From Magnolia sinica (Eukaryota; Streptophyta; Magnoliopsida; Magnoliales; Magnoliaceae), in NCBI RefSeq assembly GCF_029962835.1, contig NC_080583.1, positions 2,899,001 to 2,963,000 on the forward strand: a stretch of DNA of 64,000 nt, given 5' to 3'. Position numbers and translations under genes: made by a program. Below the pieces are notes generated by a model. That model did not search any database and was not told the DNA's origin. It worked only from the letters and a program-made list of their open reading frames with translations. This document shows, one piece after another, positions 2,721 to 58,862 of this stretch (position 1 is its first letter; the number at the start of each line of letters is the position of its first letter).

Positions 2721-3720
2721 CCCTCCCAATTGGGTCCGAGTACCCCAGCCTCCGGCTCTGCAGTATTCTAGAAAACTCGACGGAGGACTAAGTCACTTGG
2801 TCGGAATCGCCAAGTCTTGACATTGGAGTTGTAGAATCGTGCCACCTGCTGATGCCGAGCAGTAACTCGGAGTCTGGAGACATTTCTAACTTCCTCGATT
2901 AGGTCCAGATTGGCTGCAATATGGTCGGCGTTCTGATCTTCCTGGTAGTTCTTGACACGAGCTGTGGGGAGACCAACCTCGACTGACACCATTGCTTCCG
3001 AACCGTAAGATAGTGAAAATGGGGTTTCCCCAGTAGACGACTAAGTCGTAGTCCTATAGGCCCAGAGGATGAATGGGAGTTCCTCGGCTCAGTTGTCTTT
3101 CACTTTCTCCAACTTTGTCTTGATATGATGCTTGATGACTTTGTTCACTGCCTCCACTTGTCCATTAGATTGCGAGTGCTGAGGTGAGGAATACGCGTTT
3201 AAAATGTCGAGCCCCCGATATATGTCTTGGAACTTATCGTTGTCGAGCTGCTTGCCCTTATCGGAAACGATAGTGCGCGGGATTTCGAACCGATAGATAA
3301 TATTCTTTTAAACAAATTTAATCACCTTCTACTCTGTGATTTTTACGACAGGCTCAGCTTCGGCCCACTTGGTAAAGTAGTCGATTGCAACAATAACGAA
3401 CTTGACTTGTCCTTTCCCAGTGGGCAGAAGTCCGATGATGTCGATTCCCCGTTAGGCGAACGACCATGAGTCGCTTATGGGGGTCATCTCTTCTGCAGGT
3501 TACCTTGGTACGATCGCATATCGCTGACACTTATCACATCTCTGGACATAGTTCTTCGAGTCCTCCCTGATGGTCGGCTAGAAATATCCTTGACAGAATA
3601 TTTTCAGAACCAAGGCTCAACCACCAGAGTGATTTTCACAGATGCCTTAATGAATCTCCCAAATCACATAGTCTGCTTCATCGGGTCGGAGACACTTGAG
3701 GTAAGGCTGTGAATGCCCCT
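2721..3720 (-). mobile_element. Integrase region of the Tat-lineage element
   Basis: Minus-strand fragments match a Ty3/gypsy integrase: an N-terminal zinc-binding segment around 3,550-3,700, the catalytic core across about 3,000-3,520 with recognisable D-I-x-G and D-Y-F-T-K-W words, and a C-terminal segment (2,768-2,992) with the A-R-x-x-N-S...D-L-V-L-R-R pattern usual at the end of plant Ty3/gypsy pol. The region is broken into several pieces. Confidence 0.8.
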
Positions 3721-4500
3721 TCTTGTACAAGATCGCTTCCAAGATTATATACCATGCAGCTCTGACCCTCAGATGTTTTGCCTCCAACCTGTCCGAGGGG
3801 ACCTCACCAGATGTGAGGTAATTATAAATCGGGTCCATCCAACTCGGTGTGACTTTCACCAGGTTGACTGATTCCTGCTCCGTTCGGTCAATGATCGGAT
3901 GCTCTATGAACTCCATAGGGATGACTCGAGGAATCTTTCCCTCAGTGGTCGAGGCTAGCCTTCCGAGGGCGTCAGCCCAAGAATTCTCTGTTCTTGGTAT
4001 TTGATTGATAATGCAGCTCCAAAACTTTTCTATCAACTTTCTGGCCTTGACCAGATAAGCCACCATCCCGGTTTGCTTGGCCTCATATTCGGTGGAGATA
4101 TGATTCACCACCATCTGAGAGTCGCATCGCACCTTGAGGGACAGGACCCCCGGGCTGGCCACCAATCGGAGTCCAGCCAACAGGGTCTCATACTTCGTTT
4201 CATTGTTAGAGGCTTTGAAACCAAGTTTAATTGCGTATTAGATAGGTGTAGAGTCAGATGCGACTAGGACAATCCCTGCCCCAGCACGCTTGGCATTAGA
4301 CAATCCGTCCACGAAGAGGATCCACCTTGGTTTTGACTCTGTATCTTGATTAGTTGAAGGAGCAGATGAGGGAGCTGCTTCTACTTTGGCGCTCGTCCCC
4401 TCTACATTTGGAGCAATAAACTCTGCAATGAAATCGGCCACAGCTTAGCCCTTAATCACGGTCCTTGGTCAGTACTGGATATCAAACTCACCGAGTTCGA
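3721..4500 (-). mobile_element. Second (archaeal-type) RNase H domain of the Tat-lineage element
   Basis: The first part (4,238-4,441) carries the F-V-D-G-x-S-N...G-A-G-I-V-L signature that opens this second RNase H in Tat elements. The next part (3,647-4,180) continues with C-D-S-Q-M-V-V-N and N-S-W-A-D-A-L-G-R-L-A. The presence of two RNase H domains separates Tat-lineage elements from chromoviruses and supports the lineage call. Confidence 0.85.
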
Positions 4501-5560
4501 TTGCCCACTTAGTTAGCCAACCTAACACCTCGAGCTTCTGGAGGACTTGCTTGAGGGTAGAGTCGGTCAAGACAATGATGGAATGGGCCTGAAAGTACGG
4601 GTGTAACCTTCGAGCTGAGACAATTAAGCAGTGTTAACTTCTCCAGAGTCGGGTACCTTATCTCAGCAGGCACCATTACTTTGCTCACATAGTATACGGG
4701 ATGCTGCTTGCCCCCCCCCCTGATTAGCCCGAAGCTAACGGCTGAGGCCGAGACTACCAGATACAGGAACAAGGTCTCGCCCTCTTTAGGCTTGGACAGT
4801 AGGGGCGGAGAGCCCAGATACTGCTTCAACTGATGGAAGGCTTTCTCACATTTCGATGTCCACTCGGCCCTCTTATGATCCTTTAATTGCTGAAAGAAGG
4901 GGAGGCATTTGTCAGTAGCTCTGGATATGAACCGTCCAAGCGTAGCTACTCATCTGGTGAGACATTGTATCTGTTTTGTCGTCCGAGGCAAGCTCATATC
5001 GAGGAGCGCCTTGATCTTGTCTGGGTTTGCTTCAATAACCCGTTGACTAACCTAAAACCTGATGAATTTGTCAGAGCCGACCTCGAAAGTACACTTCGTG
5101 GGATTTAGCTTCATTTGGTATTCTCGGAGGATGGAGAAGGTCTCTCTGAGATCCGTTAGATGATCGGATGCCCTGACGCTCTTAACAAGCATGTCATCAA
5201 CGTAAACTTCCATGGTGCGTCCTATTTGCTTGACGAACATCTGGTTCACCAATCTCTGAAATGTGGCCCCAACATTCTTCAGGTCAAACGGCATAACCCG
5301 ATAACAGTAGAGCCCCTTATCGGTGACGAAAGTAGTCTTCTTCCTGTCTGGGGGGTGCATCGCGATCTGGTTATATCCGGAATAAGCGTCCAGGAAGGAG
5401 AGTAGTTCATACCTAGCTGTACTGTTTACCAGTTGGTCGATCCGAGGCAAGGGGAAACTATCCTTAGGACAAGCCTTGTTCAGGTCCGAATAGTCCACAC
5501 AGACCCGCCACTTCCTGGTTACCTTCTTGACGAGGACCATATTTGTGATCCAATTTGGAT
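4501..5560 (-). mobile_element. Reverse transcriptase and first RNase H of the Tat-lineage element
   Basis: The reverse transcriptase part (5,052-5,540) shows D-Y-S-D-L-N-K-A-C-P-K-D, L-D-A-Y-S-G-Y-N-Q-I and the catalytic Y-V-D-D-M-L-V-K-S box. The RNase H that follows (4,509-4,829) has the A-V-S-x-x-L-I-R and P-V-Y-Y-V-S-K pattern of Ty3/gypsy elements. These are the most readable parts of the fossil and fix its superfamily. Confidence 0.92.
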
Positions 5561-6480
5561 AGTGTACCTCCTCGATGAAGCCGATGCTGAGGAGTTTGAA
5601 GACCTCGTCGGCTATAGTTGTATATCGCTCGACGTCGAACGCTCCTCTTCTATTTTACTAGCCTGTGATCTGGGTCTACATTCAGCCTGTGGACCATAAC
5701 ATTAGGAGACATTCCCAATATATCCTCATGTGACCATGCGAAGACATCTCTGTGCTGCTACAGGAAAGCCAACATTTGAGACTGTTGGTCGGAATTTAAT
5801 GGTATGCTGACTTAAACGATTATGCTTAGATCTGCTTCATCAAGCGGCATGGCCTCCAAGTCCTCCATGGATGAATCCTCTGTAGGGCCCCTTGGATTAA
5901 GGACATTAATGGTGAGGGCCTGCTTCACTGACCCTTTCCTTACTGCTATCACATAACATATCTGAGCCTCGCGCTGATCACCTTAGAGATAGCCTATTCC
6001 GCCTTCGGCGAGAAACCTAATCATTAGATGGTATGCGGACATGACTGCCCTCATTGTGTTGAGGGAGGGTCTGCCTAAGATGATGTTGTGCACTGACGAC
6101 ACGTAAACGATAAGGAAGTCAACCAAAAGGGTGACTTGATGTCGTCCTTCTCCCGCGGTCATAGGAAGGGAGAGCTCATTCAGAGATCACCCTTTCTTCG
6201 GCAAAGCCATGCAGAGGGGTCTTCACAGGTCTCAGGTGTGACCTTGGAATCCCTATTCTTTCGAAGGCCTTCAAGTAGATGACATCAGCCGAACTCCCGG
6301 TGTCGACCAGGATGCGGTACACCTTGTGGTTGGCTATGATCATCGTCACCACTAAGGCATCGTCATGTGGATGCTGAATTCCGCGCACATCATCTTCCGT
6401 GAAGGTCAGGCTCCAAGAATTGACTCGAAGCTCTTTCTTCGGTCTCTCGTTCATGTGGACGTAGTGCTTCGGATCAGACT
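5561..6480 (-). mobile_element. Protease and pol linker of the Tat-lineage element
   Basis: A retroviral-type aspartic protease is seen at 6,176-6,454 with the V-D-T-G-S-S-A-D-V-I active-site pattern, followed towards the reverse transcriptase by a linker that resembles Ty3/gypsy pol but is fragmented. Confidence 0.85.
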
Positions 6481-41876: not shown

Positions 41877-42162
41877 AAGAATATCATTGCAGGCTTACCG
41901 CCTGCACTGGTCCGGGAAAATAGTATAGTACCGAGAAAAGATCGAGAGAAATTTCCTACCGTACCACCCATATATGGCCCACGAACTTTGTAAGTCCACT
42001 TGCTTTTACCTTCCAAGAGTAAGCCCTGGCTGTACGGATAACTTTTCTCAGGTCAAAAATGCCTCCTTTTCCTTCCGTAAGCGGATCGGCTGGTACTCGA
42101 AGACGAGCGCTGACACTCCTCGATCTCCAAGTTGTACGATCGGTTCAAAAGAGATCCAAGTT

Positions 42163-42620
42163 ACATGGGCCCCATAATTATGTATTTATTATATCCACAA
42201 CGTTCATCCATATTTCGAGGTCATTTTAAAGCATTATCAAGAAAAAAAAAAAAAATCATACCCAAAGATCAGTTGGACCACACCACAGAGCAGCAGGATT
42301 ATTGATTTTCACCGTTAAAAGTTTTATAACGCCCACCATAACATCTGTTTTCCATCCAATCTATTCATAAGGTCACAAAGACCCGAATGAAGAGGAAAAA
42401 ACAAAGACCTGAATGAAGCGGAAAAACAAATTTCATAATGATCCAAAACTTCTGTGACCCCTAAAAGGGTTTCAATGGTAGACATTCAATCCTCCACTAC
42501 CTTTTACAGTATGGTCCACTTGATAGCTAGATCTATCTTATTTTTCATCTCAACCCTTAATACGAGTTCACCAAATAGATGGACAGTTTGGATATAACAC
42601 ATACCTCATAATGAGATCCA
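42163..42620. mobile_element. Palindromic MITE of family P nested in the MULE
   Basis: Left arm ACATGGGCCCCATAATTATG, right arm TAACACATACCTCATAATG, inner GTTGGACCACACCACAGAGC. It contains a short duplication near 42,375-42,430 (GACC-GAATGAAG-GGAAAAA wording twice). Its presence shows that the MULE is older than this insertion. Confidence 0.7.
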
Positions 42621-42767
42621 CAAAAAGCGGTAGAGATTACAACAGGGAAAAAAAAAAAAAGCCAGCGAGTCGGGATCGACCGAGTTGGGACCCTAAACAT
42701 AGTGCCGCAGCAATCTGTGCACCTTTTTTTTATTTTAAGTGGAGAACTTTATTCTACCTACATTTTT

Positions 42768-42770
<3 letters not shown>

Positions 42771-42826
<56 letters not shown>
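42771..42826. repeat. AT microsatellite in the MULE left part
   Basis: Pure (AT)n of about 56 bp. Confidence 0.95.
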
Positions 42827-42828
<2 letters not shown>

Positions 42829-42899
42829 TTTTCTTTTTCATTTCTTTCTTTATTCATTTAACAAGAATATCTTCTAAACCAAAATTAGTTACTTGACGT

Positions 42900-42995
42900 G
42901 CTATATATGATTTTAGGGTAGGAGAAGCTACTTTAGCCAACCGACCTCGTTATTTTCAAAGATTCCATCAGGTCAATGGTCCAAAATCTATTTTA
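42900..42995 (+). repeat. Fragment of LTR-like repeat R1, copy c, in the MULE
   Basis: Shares GGTAGGAGAAGCTACTTTAG-like wording and the GATTCCATCA...TCAATGGT block with 11,870-11,990. It ends abruptly where the tandem array begins. Confidence 0.65.
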
Positions 42996-43843
42996 TTCAC
43001 TTCGCGATCAATTTCAATCCTTCACGGTCAATTCCATACATTTCACGGTTAATTCCGGCGATTCCCCTTCACTTCATGGTCAATTCAATTCATTTCACGG
43101 TCAATTCCATGCATTTTATGGTCAATTCCGGCGATTCCCCTTCACTTCACGGTCAATTCAATTCATTTCACGATCAATTCCCTTCACTTCATGGTCAATT
43201 CCATGCATTTCACGGTCAATTTCGACGATTCCCCTTCACTTCACGGTCAATTCCCTTCACTTCACGGTCAATTCAATTCATTTCACAGTCAATTCCCTTC
43301 ACTTCACGGTCAATTCCGGTGATTCCCCTTCACTTCACGGTCAATTCAATTTATTTCACAGTCAATTCCTTTCACTTCACGATAAATTCAATTCATTGCA
43401 CTGTCAATTCCATTCACTTCACGGTCAATTCCATGCATTTCACGGCCAATTCCGACAATTCCCCTTCACTTCACGGTCAATTCAATTCATTTCACGATCA
43501 ATTTCCTTTACTTCACGGTCAATTCCATGCATTTCATGGTCAATTCGCTTCACTTTACGGTTAATTCCATGCATTTCATGGTCAATTCCTTCACTTCATG
43601 GTCATTTCCATTCATTTCACGGTCAATTCCGGCAATTCCCCTTCACTTCACGGTCAATTCCATGCATTTCACGGTCAATTTCCTTCACTTCACGGTCATT
43701 TTCATTCATTTCATAGTCAATTTCCTTCACTTTACGGTCAATTCCATGCATTTCATGGTCAATCCCGGTGATTCCCCTTCACTTCACGATCATTTCCATG
43801 CATTTCACGGTCAATCCCCTTCACTTCACCGTCAATTCCAGTG
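42996..43843 (+). repeat. Left tandem array of the MULE (core TTCACGGTCAATTC)
   Basis: About forty imperfect units of 20-22 bp with core TTCACGGTCAATTC. Units alternate between endings CATGCA, AATTCA and CCTTCAC, and a longer variant adds GGCGATTCCCC about every few units, giving a higher-order pattern. The plus strand is free of stop codons over long stretches in all three frames simply because the unit contains none. Confidence 0.93.
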
Positions 43844-44672
43844 ATGATGATGAATATGTTTCTAGGTGACTTCTTTCACAAAATTACAGATTAATTTTGA
43901 AGATATTGATGCTATTATAGGATAAAGAACCTGCTACGAAGAAAATATGATGATGGAACAATGTTTAACTTGTGCTGCAGCCCAATTGTATAATTCTTGC
44001 AATTCCACCTCCAATCAAGATCTTGCTACCTCTGATGCAATTAAGATCACTTGAGAAGTAAATCCTAAAGATATGTGTTCATAGCTGTCAAGTGCAAAAA
44101 AGGATTCTTTCCTTGATGATTGTGTAGCTATTATAGTCAGGGTGTTTACTTTTCAACATATGCAAAAAGATTGAATCTAGCTTAATGTAGATTTATTGAT
44201 GTTGCTAATCATATGTTGAAAGTCGTTCAATTCATATGCTTTATTCAATGTACTATTATTTGTGGGGAGCATGTTGCATTATTCAATACACTTTGTTTTT
44301 CCATGATGGTAGGATGTGAAAAGAGGTCACCATTGTTTTGAGTAGGAAGGTAAGATGTATACATCTTGGCTTCTGTGATTGCCTGAGTGATGTAGCATTA
44401 GTTTGGAGGCTGACTAGTGTGAACCTCTTGTATCCTTCTAAACAGGCTTGTTTTTCTTTTGCTTGGTGCACATGCTGATCTAGGAAAAGTTCGCTCTGTA
44501 TGTTTCTCTTCACATGTAACTTTGTTTTTGCACTAGTTAAAAATCAATGTGTGAGTAAAAAACTAAAGCAGTGTATATGTTCTTTGCATTAGATCTCCAG
44601 CTTCTTATTGTTGGGGCGTCATGTTCAAAATCACTAGGTCTCCAGAAGTGTATATGTTCTTTGCACTAGTCA
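43844..44672. mobile_element. MULE interior, unrecognised part
   Basis: AT-rich with no recognised domain. GTGTATATGTTCTTTGCA occurs at about 44,572 and again at about 44,649, and the block CTTCTTATTGTTGGGGCGTC (about 44,602) recurs as CTTCTTACTGTTGGGGCATC at about 44,926 at the end of the transposase fragment. These are internal duplications. Confidence 0.6.
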
Positions 44673-44910
44673 GGGAATTGACCGTGAAATGCATGGAATT
44701 GACCGTGAAGTGAGGGGGAATCGCATGTAATTGACCATGAAATGCATGGAATTGACTGTGAAGTGAAGGGAACTAACCGTGAAATGCATGGAATTGACCG
44801 TGAAATGAATGTCTTATTAAAAATTTGAATCGTAGTAGTAAGAAATTTGCAATTTCAAAGAAAGCAACAAATGTATTCAATATATAACATTCACAGTCAT
44901 ATTACAAGAT
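44673..44910. repeat. Small array patch plus unique tail, duplicated at about 46,315-46,520
   Basis: The patch 44,673-44,812 is in the orientation of the right array. It is followed by a tail (CTTATT-AAAATTTGAATC ... ATTCAATATATAACATT) that recurs in the same order and orientation after the right array at 46,428-46,520. So array edge and tail were duplicated together. Confidence 0.8.
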
Positions 44911-45318
44911 ATGTTCCACACCCAAACTTCTTACTGTTGGGGCATCATGTTCGAAACCACTGTAAGCCACCGGGTCTTTGAGTATTGCCTCATTAACGCG
45001 CTGCATTGTTTCGGTGAATAAAGGAATGTAGTGATCTAGATGCTTCAATTGTGCTGCCAAGAATATTCTTACATCTACGTTATCTTCAATTACAGTCGGA
45101 AGGACTGATTTGTTTGTGCAAGGATATAATCCTTTCAACCTAATATCATAATCCTCAGGTCTACTCTTCGCAATCCATTACATTTTTTATAAAAGCTCAT
45201 CATATATAGTGTCAACGCCCACAACAGTAGTTTTCGAGTCTCCACCCTTGTACATGTATTGATTGTTTTCACTTACTAACTCCCCACCATATGAGCATAA
45301 GATGATTATTGAAGCCAT
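44902..45318 (-). pseudogene. Decayed MULE transposase N-terminus (PB1-like), fragment
   Basis: On the minus strand, the ATG at 45,318 opens M-A-S-I-I-I-L-C-S-Y-G-G-E-L, then Y-K-G-G-D-S-K-T-T-V-V-G-V-D-T-I-Y-D-E-L-L, then R-L-K-G-L-Y-P-C. This follows the pattern of the PB1-like N-terminal domain of many plant MULE transposases (GG-x-W/L, Y-x-GG-D, T-Y-x-E-L). Two in-frame stop codons lie near 45,175-45,195, and the reading ends at 44,902 with no transposase core. Assignment rests on pattern memory only. Confidence 0.55.
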
Positions 45319-45599
45319 TTTCTGAAAACAAACATAATGATATAACTCGTTTAGTATTCACATGTATAAGGTGGATTTGACCAAGTAGTAGGAAATCCAT
45401 CGTTGTACTAGCACGAATATGACCGACTTATCGGTCAAATTTTCAAAGTTTTCAATTGTAGGGATCTATGCCACTCAGTTCGCAATGATTTTCACTTACT
45501 TCGCGATCAATTTCACTCACATTTAGGGCAGGTTCACTCAATTCGTGATGAATTTCACTCACTTCTCAGTCCTGAAGTGATTACAAATGACCGCAAAGT

Positions 45600-46430
45600 G
45601 AGTGAACTTAAGGAAATTGAATTAACCGTGAAGTGAAGAGGAAATGACGGAATTGACCGTGAGAAGTGAAGGGAATTGACCGTGAAATACATGGAATTGA
45701 CCGTGAAGTGAAGGGGGAATTGACCGTGAAATGCATAGAATTGACCGTGAAGTGAAGGGGATTGACTGTGAAATGAAGGGAATTGACCGTGAAGTGAAGG
45801 GAATTGATCATGAAATGCATGGAATTGACCGTGAAGTGAAGGGGATTGACCATGAAATGAATTGAATTGATCGTGAAGTGAAGGGGATTGACCATGAAAT
45901 GCATGGAATTGACTGTGAAGTGAAGGGGATTGACTGTGAAATGAATTGAATTGACCGTGAAGTGAAGGGAATTAACCGTGAAATGCATGGAATTGACCGT
46001 GAAGTTGAGGGGATTAACCGTGAAATGAATTGAATTGACCGTGAAGTGAAGGGGAATCACCAGAATTGACCATGAAATGCATGGAATTGACTGTGAAGTG
46101 AAGTGAAATGACCATGAAATTCATGGAATTAATTGTGAAGTAAAGGGAATTAACCGCGAAATGAATTGAATTGACTGTGAAGTGAAGGGGAATCGCCAGA
46201 ATTGACCGTGAAATGCATGGAATTGACCGTGAAGTGAAGGGAAATGACCGTGAAACGCATGGAATTGACTGTGAAGTAAAGGGAATTGACCGCGAAATGA
46301 ATTGAATTGATCGTGAAGTGAGGGGGAATCGCATGAAATTAACTGTGAAATGCATGGAATTAACCATGAAGTGAAGGGAATTGACCGTGAAATGCTTGGA
46401 ATTGACCGTGAAATGAATATCTTATTGAAA
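45600..46430 (-). repeat. Right tandem array of the MULE (inverted relative to the left)
   Basis: Same unit as the left array but reverse-complemented (core GAATTGACCGTGAA), about forty units. The longer variant is present again (GGGGAATCGCC). A degenerate lead-in at 45,470-45,600 and a degenerate tail at 46,560-46,770 (GAAATTGACC words) extend it. Confidence 0.93.
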
Positions 46431-47324
46431 ATTTGAATCATAGTGGTAAGAAATTCGCAATTTCAAAGAAAGCAACAAATGTATTCAATATATAACATTT
46501 ATAGTCGTATTACAAAAAATGCACTACAAATTCACAGTCGTATTACAAAAATGCACTACAATTTGACAGTAAAATGCATGAAATTGACCAAGTAGCCCAT
46601 GAAATTGACCGATCCATGTAATAAATTGACCGAGAACTAAGTGAAATTGACCGCGAAACTTCGTCAACTTAACTGCGAACTTCTTGAAATTTATTGGATA
46701 ACCACGTAAAATTGACTTAGCAATGCATGAAATTGACCACGTGAAATTGACCACAAACTTCTAGGTAATTTCTTAAGAATTTAAACATCCTTACTTCCTA
46801 TAGCCGTCGTATCAGTGAAATCCGTGTTCGAGAAAAAGAATAAGAGTGCGTTGATGCGAAACACATTCTTCGGAGAAAAGCTTACAAGATTTCATGTTTA
46901 TCAATGCATTCATGTCCTCTCAGAAAATGAATGCAAGTAGCCTTGAGTAAAATGGAACATGGAGATGTAATGTGATACTAGGATGGAGATTCTATGGAGA
47001 TTTAATGAAGAAAATGGGTGAAAAGAAGGAATATGGATGACAGAGATGAGTTCAGACATGTATTTCAGTGTAAGGGAGTGAATGGAGTGAAATTGATAAA
47101 GTAGGGGCATTTTCAACCTGTAAAAGTTGTCCACGTAGCTGGGGCTTATTCTTGGGAGCTATAAAGAAGTGGGCCTAAAAAGGTTCATGTGCCATAAATT
47201 GGTAGTACAGTAGAAAATTTCTCGAAGATCGATTAGTTCCAAGAAAAGATTGATGTCTTCCGGGGCGGACTTAGATTGTGTAGCCTACCACACAGCCTGG
47301 GCGTGTATAGATGGCAAATATTTG

Positions 47325-58081: not shown

Positions 58082-58234
58082 ACCAAAGTGACCAAAGTAC
58101 CCTTTTTGGAGCAGTTAGGGAGACACCTCTACTAACCCAAAATACCCTTTTGAAATTAGTGGTTTAGGTGTCTTAAATAGATTAAGTACATTCAATAGAA
58201 AGTACTTAAAAATAATAAAAGAAAAAAAAAAATC

Positions 58235-58242
58235 TATAAAAA
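58235..58242 (+). promoter_or_regulatory. TATA box of the dirigent gene
   Basis: TATAAAAA, placing the transcription start near 58,268 and leaving a leader of about 37 nt. Confidence 0.7.
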
Positions 58243-58304
58243 CACATCCAACCCTATCCAATCCAATCAAAGTAGTAATAGAAAGAAAAACAACCATCTG
58301 TTGC

Positions 58305-58862
58305 ATGATGCTACCCAAGATCATATTCTGCACAGCAGTTTCAGTGGCCACACTAGCTGTGATCCTCCTAGCTGTGATCTCCCCTTCAGTCCATAGAAAG
58401 CCACAAAAGAACCAAACAAGGCCGTGGCTAGCTCTCTCCTTGTACATCCAACACCCCCACCACCCAGTTCCCAGCACCCAAGTGGGCCCACTCGCCGACG
58501 GTGCGTTCGTCTTCCACCACACGCTCACGGCAGGGCCCGAGAACACGTCACGGGCCATTGGGAGGGCCCAAGGCTTCATAATCCCAATCGAGCACTTTGC
58601 ACAATCTGCATTCAACATCATATATCTTACTATCGACGCCGATGAATACTCCGGCAGCATTAGTGTCCACGCTAAGCACATCGGCCACAAGAGCAGGGAA
58701 GAACTTACGGTCGTTGGTGGGACTGGGTCTTTTGCATTTGCCCGAGGGCTGGCCATCTTCAAACAGACAGACGGACAAAGACCGTCGTCGAATATTGATG
58801 CAATGTATCATGTGAAGCTACAGTTGAGATTTCCTGATCGAGACCAGACGATTCCTGGTTGA
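58305..58862 (+). CDS. Dirigent family protein
   Basis: Dirigent proteins are secreted beta-barrel proteins that guide the stereochemistry of phenoxy-radical coupling in lignan and lignin formation, or related cyclisations. This gene is intronless, 185 aa, the normal length. Residues 6-27 form a hydrophobic signal peptide or anchor. The dirigent domain runs from about residue 41 to the end, with G-P-E-N-T-S-R (78-83, including an N-glycosylation site at N80), A-Q-G-F-I-I-P (88-94), Y-L-T-I (107-110), E-Y-S-G-S-I-S-V (114-121), E-E-L-T-V-V-G-G-T-G-S-F (132-143) and Y-H-V-K-L-Q-L-R-F-P (168-177). Two ATG codons stand in tandem at 58,305 and 58,308; the first is used. The TATA box and an AC-type site lie upstream. 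Subfamily and substrate cannot be told from the sequence alone. Confidence 0.93.
   Translation: MMLPKIIFCTAVSVATLAVILLAVISPSVHRKPQKNQTRPWLALSLYIQHPHHPVPSTQVGPLADGAFVFHHTLTAGPENTSRAIGRAQGFIIPIEHFAQSAFNIIYLTIDADEYSGSISVHAKHIGHKSREELTVVGGTGSFAFARGLAIFKQTDGQRPSSNIDAMYHVKLQLRFPDRDQTIPG

Follow-up and report, generated by a model that had tools for sequence, protein, structure and literature searches.

How does a Mutator-like element (MULE) come to carry two long arrays of short tandem repeats, in opposite orientation and well inside its ends, and what are the arrays for? The question is posed by a 5,278-bp element at positions 41946-47223 of the window, by which we mean the whole 64,000-nucleotide stretch of Magnolia sinica DNA analysed here (contig NC_080583.1, positions 2,899,001 to 2,963,000 of the forward strand). 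A preliminary description, made from the letters of the window, recognised the element as a MULE and suggested that the array unit may be a transposase-binding site or a replication-slippage product. The genome-wide follow-up suggests another answer: we put the chances about even that the arrays serve in cis as targets for a VANC-like protein, produced by fuller members of the same family. The argument turns on the orientation and phase of the array units, on the transposase gene and the convergent second gene of these fuller members, and on one copy in which an array lies upstream of DUF1985 frames.

Borders and arrays of the window element

The element is bounded by the target-site duplication AAAGATCGA on the left (41937-41945) and GAAGATCGA on the right (47224-47232), found by flank comparison; the two are identical at 8/9 positions, the single mismatch already noted in the preliminary description, and by our own arithmetic such a match has a chance of about 1e-4 at a fixed position. 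The terminal inverted repeats (TIRs) align over about 135 bp, in keeping with the at least 130 bp reported before and with the long TIRs of MULEs; the left one (41946-42080, plus strand) starts with GAGAAATTT and follows the family terminus pattern, and the right one occupies 47089-47223. The LEFT end region, whose 355 bp were used for the genome search, spans 41946-42300 (plus), and the RIGHT end region, delimited by TIR alignment and genome search and including the right TIR, spans 46801-47223 (minus). A conserved flank, the L3 module (42831-42990, plus), lies immediately outside the left array; in several copies the L3 matches stop where the array starts. Within the left arm there is also a pure AT microsatellite of 28 repeats (42771-42826).

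An array unit was defined as the core TTCACGGTCAATT with at most three mismatches. By this count there are 37 units in the left array (42990-43840, plus) and 36 in the right (45600-46417, minus), and in both TTCACGGTCAATT reads inward; 200 shuffles of the left array gave a mean of 0.14 units and a maximum of 1, against the 37 observed. The right array runs out into a degenerate tail (46425-46790, minus), with 5 cores at up to three mismatches and 10 at up to four. The two opposite arrays of about forty 20-22 bp units previously described are thus confirmed, with a dominant period of exactly 21 bp and additional 31-bp steps, and so is their position internal to separate, non-repetitive ends, the left array lying about 1 kb inside the element.

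Orientation, spacing and divergence of the units

Orientation was counted in ten two-ended copies, with one switch point fitted per copy and with L011, the second L022 copy and single-ended loci left out; 959 of 960 units read inward. Eight of the ten copies have units on both strands, 11 to 94 in each orientation, and L013 and L014b have them on one strand only. Because almost every counted unit points inward, whichever end it belongs to, we prefer to regard the inverted pair as two stretches of noncoding DNA that are turned towards their genes in the same manner. Spacing is equally regular: among 1,710 units from 21 loci there are 1,282 steps of 21 bp and 219 of 31 bp, and genome-wide the exact core pairs number 5,205 at 21 bp versus 25 at 20 bp; 21 and 31 bp would correspond to about two and three helical turns. 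Two spacer types alternate along the arrays (BA 614, AB 435, BB 57, AA 24), which gives 42-bp dimers and 136-bp blocks. Arrays with units of 34-35 bp were seen at two family loci, L017:2948-4525 and L042:4097-5682.

Several simple explanations of the arrays were tried and rejected. A coding role is not compatible with the 31-bp steps, which, unlike those of 21 bp, are not a multiple of three, so that frames shift along the arrays; a hairpin-forming unit was dismissed, as two 21-mers and one 42-mer did not fold. Nor did the arms arise by recent inverted duplication, arms of the same element being no more similar than those of different elements: the values are 0.851 versus 0.878-0.881 for LEFT arms (n=4 pairs) and 0.873 versus 0.855-0.862 for L3 arms (n=8). 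In a tree of the ends, the two ends of a copy fell in different groups for 9 of 11 copies; support was weak with 23 rows (73/85) and stood at 97/97 with 19 rows.

Changes in the cores of 1,501 units are unevenly distributed, affecting CG sites at 19.0 and 11.8%, CHG at 9.5% and CHH at 3.3-3.5%, a decay pattern that fits the methylation contexts of plants; two A/T core sites also carry transitions (6.5 and 8.4%).

The family in the genome

The family was searched for in the 1.84-Gb genome; in these searches the best candidates were scored, and for patterns the first 100 places were listed. From 5,243 first-look candidates for the LEFT end at least 40 matches were scored, and for the RIGHT end (last 423 bp) at least 41, while the terminus pattern with up to two mismatches has 2,120 matches against 7 for its control, and the array 36-mer with up to three mismatches has 31,234 against 0.

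The preliminary description had named arrays lying outside such termini, and termini never associated with the array, as findings that would overturn it. For the most part ends and arrays go together. Among the 20 LEFT-end loci examined (the first 21 of 39 listed non-window matches), 18 have an array, taken as a cluster of at least three units; the exceptions are L012, where the L3 module and a few units follow past a 6.3-kb interruption, and L016, whose arrays are built from a different motif. On C1, ten of the first 12 array clusters have a family end, flank module or transposase within the 3.5-4 kb examined, and two, L031 and L039, do not.

A target duplication of MULE type, 8-10 bp long and with no more than one mismatch, accompanies 9 of 15 two-ended copies: the window element, L013, two copies in L014, L019, L025 and three long copies on C3, C8 and C5; for L013 and the first L014 copy it appears only after a one-base shift. 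It is borderline in L023 and was not found in L011, both L022 copies, L026 and L028; a poly-T flank match, obtained with an alternative pairing of the L022 ends, was left out of this count. The C3 copy (C3:20036727-20049675, 12.9 kb, duplication 10/10) and the C8 copy (C8:64985013-65000668, 15.7 kb, 9/9) have LEFT and RIGHT ends of the window type; the C5 copy (C5:33236506-33251871, 15.4 kb, 8/9) has the RIGHT end, and on its other side a LEFT-like terminal repeat of 118 bp only. Other copies, for example in L014, L019, L023 and L028, are symmetric, in the order LEFT-L3-array followed by array-L3-LEFT, and thus have the long inverted arms with tandem subrepeats of foldback elements. Inside the C3 copy, two long open frames (L010:7093-7980, plus) resemble, to the eye, part of a host gene more than the coding sequence of a MULE, and may be a captured gene.

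The transposase and the window copy

A transposase of the family is found at L043, in an open frame of 829 amino acids that scores above cut-off for PF10551 (6e-19), PF00872, PF03108 and PF04434, with the MULE, Transposase_mut, DBD_Tnp_Mut and SWIM domains characteristic of MULE transposases. The search for further copies that the preliminary description had proposed has thus yielded shared ends, 9-bp duplications, arrays and a full-length transposase frame; the target duplications, the long TIRs and the family transposase together bear out the assignment of the element to the MULEs.

At L043 the order of modules is RIGHT-type end, about 9 array units, transposase, a plus array of 22 units and a minus array of 47. 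The window element has the same order, with the transposase cut to an N-terminal remnant of residues 2-157 (44887-45354, minus) that contains stops, has 71% identity to the L043 frame and gave no Pfam match; its right array lies upstream of the transposase start. By module order, the short third array of the window (44670-44811, minus, 6 units by core count) would correspond to the array behind the L043 transposase gene. Self-comparison also revealed a direct duplication of an array-plus-flank module (44672-44920 and 46280-46528, 89%), and outside its arrays the window copy is asymmetric. As module order is shared and the transposase shortened, we read the window copy as non-autonomous, derived by internal deletion within a MULE family that has TIRs; no DUF1985 frame was seen in this copy.

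The link between RIGHT end and transposase recurs in the genome. Using 40 of the 41 RIGHT-end matches and 150 of the 151 matches to the transposase N-terminus, an N-terminus was found within 3.5 kb of 16 of 40 RIGHT-end places, all 16 in the geometry of the window, where 0.02 were expected under a uniform spread, an assumption that also underlies the chance figures given below for DUF1985, Ulp1 and motif-2 pairings and that transposon clustering can exceed. In fuller members, 1.2-2.8 kb separate the RIGHT-end match from the N-terminus of this MuDR-type transposase.

A convergent second gene

DUF1985 has at least 150 scored matches in the genome, with 819 first-look candidates, and Ulp1 also has at least 150. 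When 150 scored matches of each were paired with 150 of the transposase N-terminus within 25 kb, DUF1985 gave 10 pairs, 9 of them convergent, and Ulp1 gave 18, of which 16 were convergent; the expected numbers are 0.61 and 0.15 for each pairing. At L043 itself, a Ulp1 match lies 21.5 kb from the transposase and faces it. Ulp1 follows DUF1985 by 2.2-2.6 kb in 59 of 68 rows, which had been hand-picked as paired-looking and do not give a rate for all 150.

Locus L046 forms the opposite arm of the C5 copy (15.4 kb), whose RIGHT end carries the transposase N-terminus. Moving inward from its terminus, an array of 23 units is met and, about 0.4 kb further on, two DUF1985 frames, which jointly match the domain at 48 bits (cut-off 35.1); the array of this copy is thus upstream of the DUF1985 gene. 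Together with the nine convergent pairs, this locus shows a DUF1985 gene in the family, a feature shared with VANDAL elements. Fuller members carry a second gene with the domains DUF1985 and Ulp1, read inward from the side opposite to the transposase and convergent to it.

A second array motif

Locus L016 (L016:551-7723) shares the LEFT end with the window (85.6% identity) and has 21-bp arrays of another motif, GGGGCAAAC..., its units being of the GGGGCAAACATGAAAATCAGC / GGGGCAAACTAGAAAATCAGC type. The period is again 21 bp; an L3-like stretch (3100-3190) continues into the arrays via two TTCGYGGTCAA units, and strict alternation of two unit types was not seen in this locus. A 22-bp pattern of motif 2, with up to one mismatch, has 4,648 matches in the genome against 0 for its control. 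Among the places listed on C1, exact motif 2 occurs within 15 kb of 3 of 6 DUF1985 places (0.05 expected), 4 of 13 Ulp1 places (0.10 expected), 2 of 23 exact family termini (0.18 expected) and none of 10 window-type transposase N-termini, and exact 36-mers of motif 1, the window motif, lie near 3 of the 10 N-termini and 3 of the 23 termini. On C1, therefore, it is motif 2 that the exact lists connect with the second gene, whereas they make no such connection for motif 1.

What the arrays may do

The motif bound by VANC21, 9 bp long, is densely arrayed in one orientation in noncoding DNA of VANDAL21, including the region that precedes the transposase gene; VANC targets are tandem repeats that differ between related elements, and VANC has the DUF1985 domain, with a DUF287 domain shown as well (PMC5735166). 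VANC genes carrying Ulp1 are the KIU genes, for which an action on specific motifs is likewise reported (PMC13317346). The family described here likewise has a dense, same-orientation tandem motif in noncoding regions, and its arrays are most likely closely packed targets, kept in phase, of a DUF1985-type protein that the element itself encodes. We infer that such a protein binds the 21-bp motif and removes silencing; its action would extend to other copies (in trans) as well as its own (in cis), like that of VANC on the tandem motifs of VANDAL elements in Arabidopsis, so that fuller copies could de-silence and mobilise non-autonomous copies retaining ends and arrays. The inverted pair would then consist of two noncoding regions that face their genes alike. 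In its widest form this proposal describes a TIR-bearing MULE family with VANC-like, sequence-specific anti-silencing, at least two motif versions (TTCACGGTCAATT; GGGGCAAAC...AAAATCAGC), a constant period of 21 bp or two helical turns, and many copies, including the deleted window copy, that carry target arrays; we advance it tentatively, with somewhat less confidence than the target role of the arrays taken by itself.

A number of observations weigh against a VANC-like role. Taken singly, the two L046 frames give 30.5 bits and no match, both below the DUF1985 cut-off of 35.1, and DUF1985 and Ulp1 genes occur also elsewhere in the genome and need not be VANC. Exact motif-1 36-mers lie within 15 kb of none of the 6 DUF1985 and none of the 13 Ulp1 places listed on C1, so that the tie of motif 1 to the second gene comes from L046, the Ulp1 place at L043 and the convergent pairs only. 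The larger L043 arrays, of 22 and 47 units, are behind the transposase, with just about 9 units between it and the RIGHT end. The inward rule is broken by 24 units in L011, a copy with no target duplication and with frames that look retrotransposon-like by eye, and the sole array seen in L009 and L020 faces the opposite way. The cytosine decay in the array cores suggests long methylation. Indels per substitution are not clearly rarer in the arrays (0.055) than in the flanks (0.077 and 0.151), which gives no clear sign of selection against indels as a proof of array function; tandem growth alone would also preserve one orientation and period. Finally, the family keeps its TIRs, whereas VANDALs are noted for degenerate ones (PMC10398659).

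The two functions first suggested for the unit stay in play as rivals, both of them improbable in our estimation, the binding-site one slightly the more so. Under it, the arrays would be extra transposase-binding sites that raise the efficiency of transposition, as in Galileo, whose TIR repeats contain additional sites of this kind (PMC4079207); their inward-facing presence in both arms agrees with this, as do the subterminal repeats of Muta1 and of 10/12 long-TIR Aedes MULE families (PMC5225508). The core, however, is found in neither 135-bp terminus above shuffles (best match with 5 mismatches, equalled by 79 and 81% of the shuffles), the left array begins about 1 kb from the element end, and a shared transposase specificity does not predict that L016 should combine the LEFT end with a different motif. 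The slippage product, in its broader form, would be non-functional satellite-like growth, by slippage or unequal exchange, in a foldback MULE, with orientation and period simply inherited. Such growth would leave higher-order units, like the 42-bp dimers and 136-bp blocks seen here, and unit numbers that vary; distances between type A units are almost the same within arrays (0.131) as between elements (0.154), and Tetris is a precedent for the passage from foldback element to satellite (PMC4079207). Against passive growth stand the retention of the array in 18 of 20 loci, the very sharp spacing, the identical 21-bp period of a different motif in L016, and the position of the L046 array directly upstream of DUF1985 frames; the second gene points instead to a VANC-like target.

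A third possibility, that the inverted arrays give rise to hairpin RNA and small interfering RNA and that the window copy silences its family as Mu killer does, appears very improbable. The listed inverted pairs, the 25 longest, show 80-91% complementarity over stretches of 128-358 bp, the cytosine decay is compatible with methylation, and Mu killer has been proposed to yield a hairpin RNA that silences MuDR (PMC3440606). Arrays are present also in copies with transposase or DUF1985 frames, and are thus not a rearrangement specific to a silencer; hairpin RNA may be a side effect of these arrays.

Should the VANC-like role of the arrays hold, transposon-encoded anti-silencing would reach beyond the VANDALs, poor in TIRs, into a MULE family that bears TIRs and has some two thousand terminus matches, and, if the genome is that of a magnoliid, such systems would exist outside eudicots and in elements that retain TIRs. 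A MULE with arrays inside it would then be the remains of two gene-facing noncoding regions, not a random foldback. Helical periodicity of the motifs reportedly sets VANC specificity (a study of Sasaki, 2022, in the EMBO J), and the family would provide a natural series of target arrays, with two motif types in a fixed 21-bp phase, for testing whether motif density and helical phase do so. A literature search, with most subscription journals outside its reach, found neither the combination of TIRs, convergent DUF1985/Ulp1 gene, fixed 21-bp phase and two motifs, nor a published description of a family carrying these arrays.

Neighbouring sequences in the window

Elsewhere in the window, an open frame at 58119-58862 (plus) matches Dirigent (PF03018, 6e-18), and a retrotransposon relic with RVT_1 and RVT_3 matches lies at 3647-5654 (minus).

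Comparison with known systems

Maize MuDR likewise has a pair of convergent genes, each with its start within one of the terminal regions; it differs in its second gene, which is mudrB and not DUF1985/Ulp1, and it is not known to have large arrays. The preliminary description went too far in denying such arrays to ordinary MULEs: tandem repeats in subterminal position are reported for Aedes MULEs (PMC5225508), Tm1 (PMC3169594) and VANDALs (PMC5735166). Tandem repeats in MULE arms are known from Tm1 and Muta1, and the array itself is a variation on them.

Among foldback elements, FARE of Arabidopsis is now classed with the MULEs (PMC4486113). The Tm1 Mutator/Foldback elements of root-knot nematodes, some members of which have a Phantom-type transposase, share with the present family the 9-bp target duplications, repeats in both arms and a variable unit number; their repeats of about 14 bp, however, form most of the TIR and start a few bp from the end, whereas here the left array lies about 1 kb inside (PMC3169594), and the present family has in addition the DUF1985/Ulp1 gene. 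The long-TIR MULEs of Aedes aegypti, Muta1 among them, are similar in their 8-9 bp target duplications, subterminal tandem repeats and variable-repeat derivatives; unlike the arrays described here, the repeat of Muta1, 12 bp in nine copies, is inside its 145-bp TIR, and no second gene is described in the accessible text (PMC5225508).

The closest likeness is to the VANDAL/VANC/KIU systems of Arabidopsis, in which a MULE transposase is combined with a DUF1985 second gene, and in KIU with Ulp1 (PMC5735166, PMC10398659, PMC13317346); in both, a short motif is densely repeated in one orientation in noncoding regions, including that upstream of the transposase, and related copies have different motifs. 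Degenerate or absent TIRs are a VANDAL feature (PMC10398659) and TIRs of about 135 bp are kept here, so the family is not filed as a VANDAL. It differs further in its inverted array pair of up to 80 or more units, in its 21-bp unit with a 42-bp dimer and in its convergent genes.

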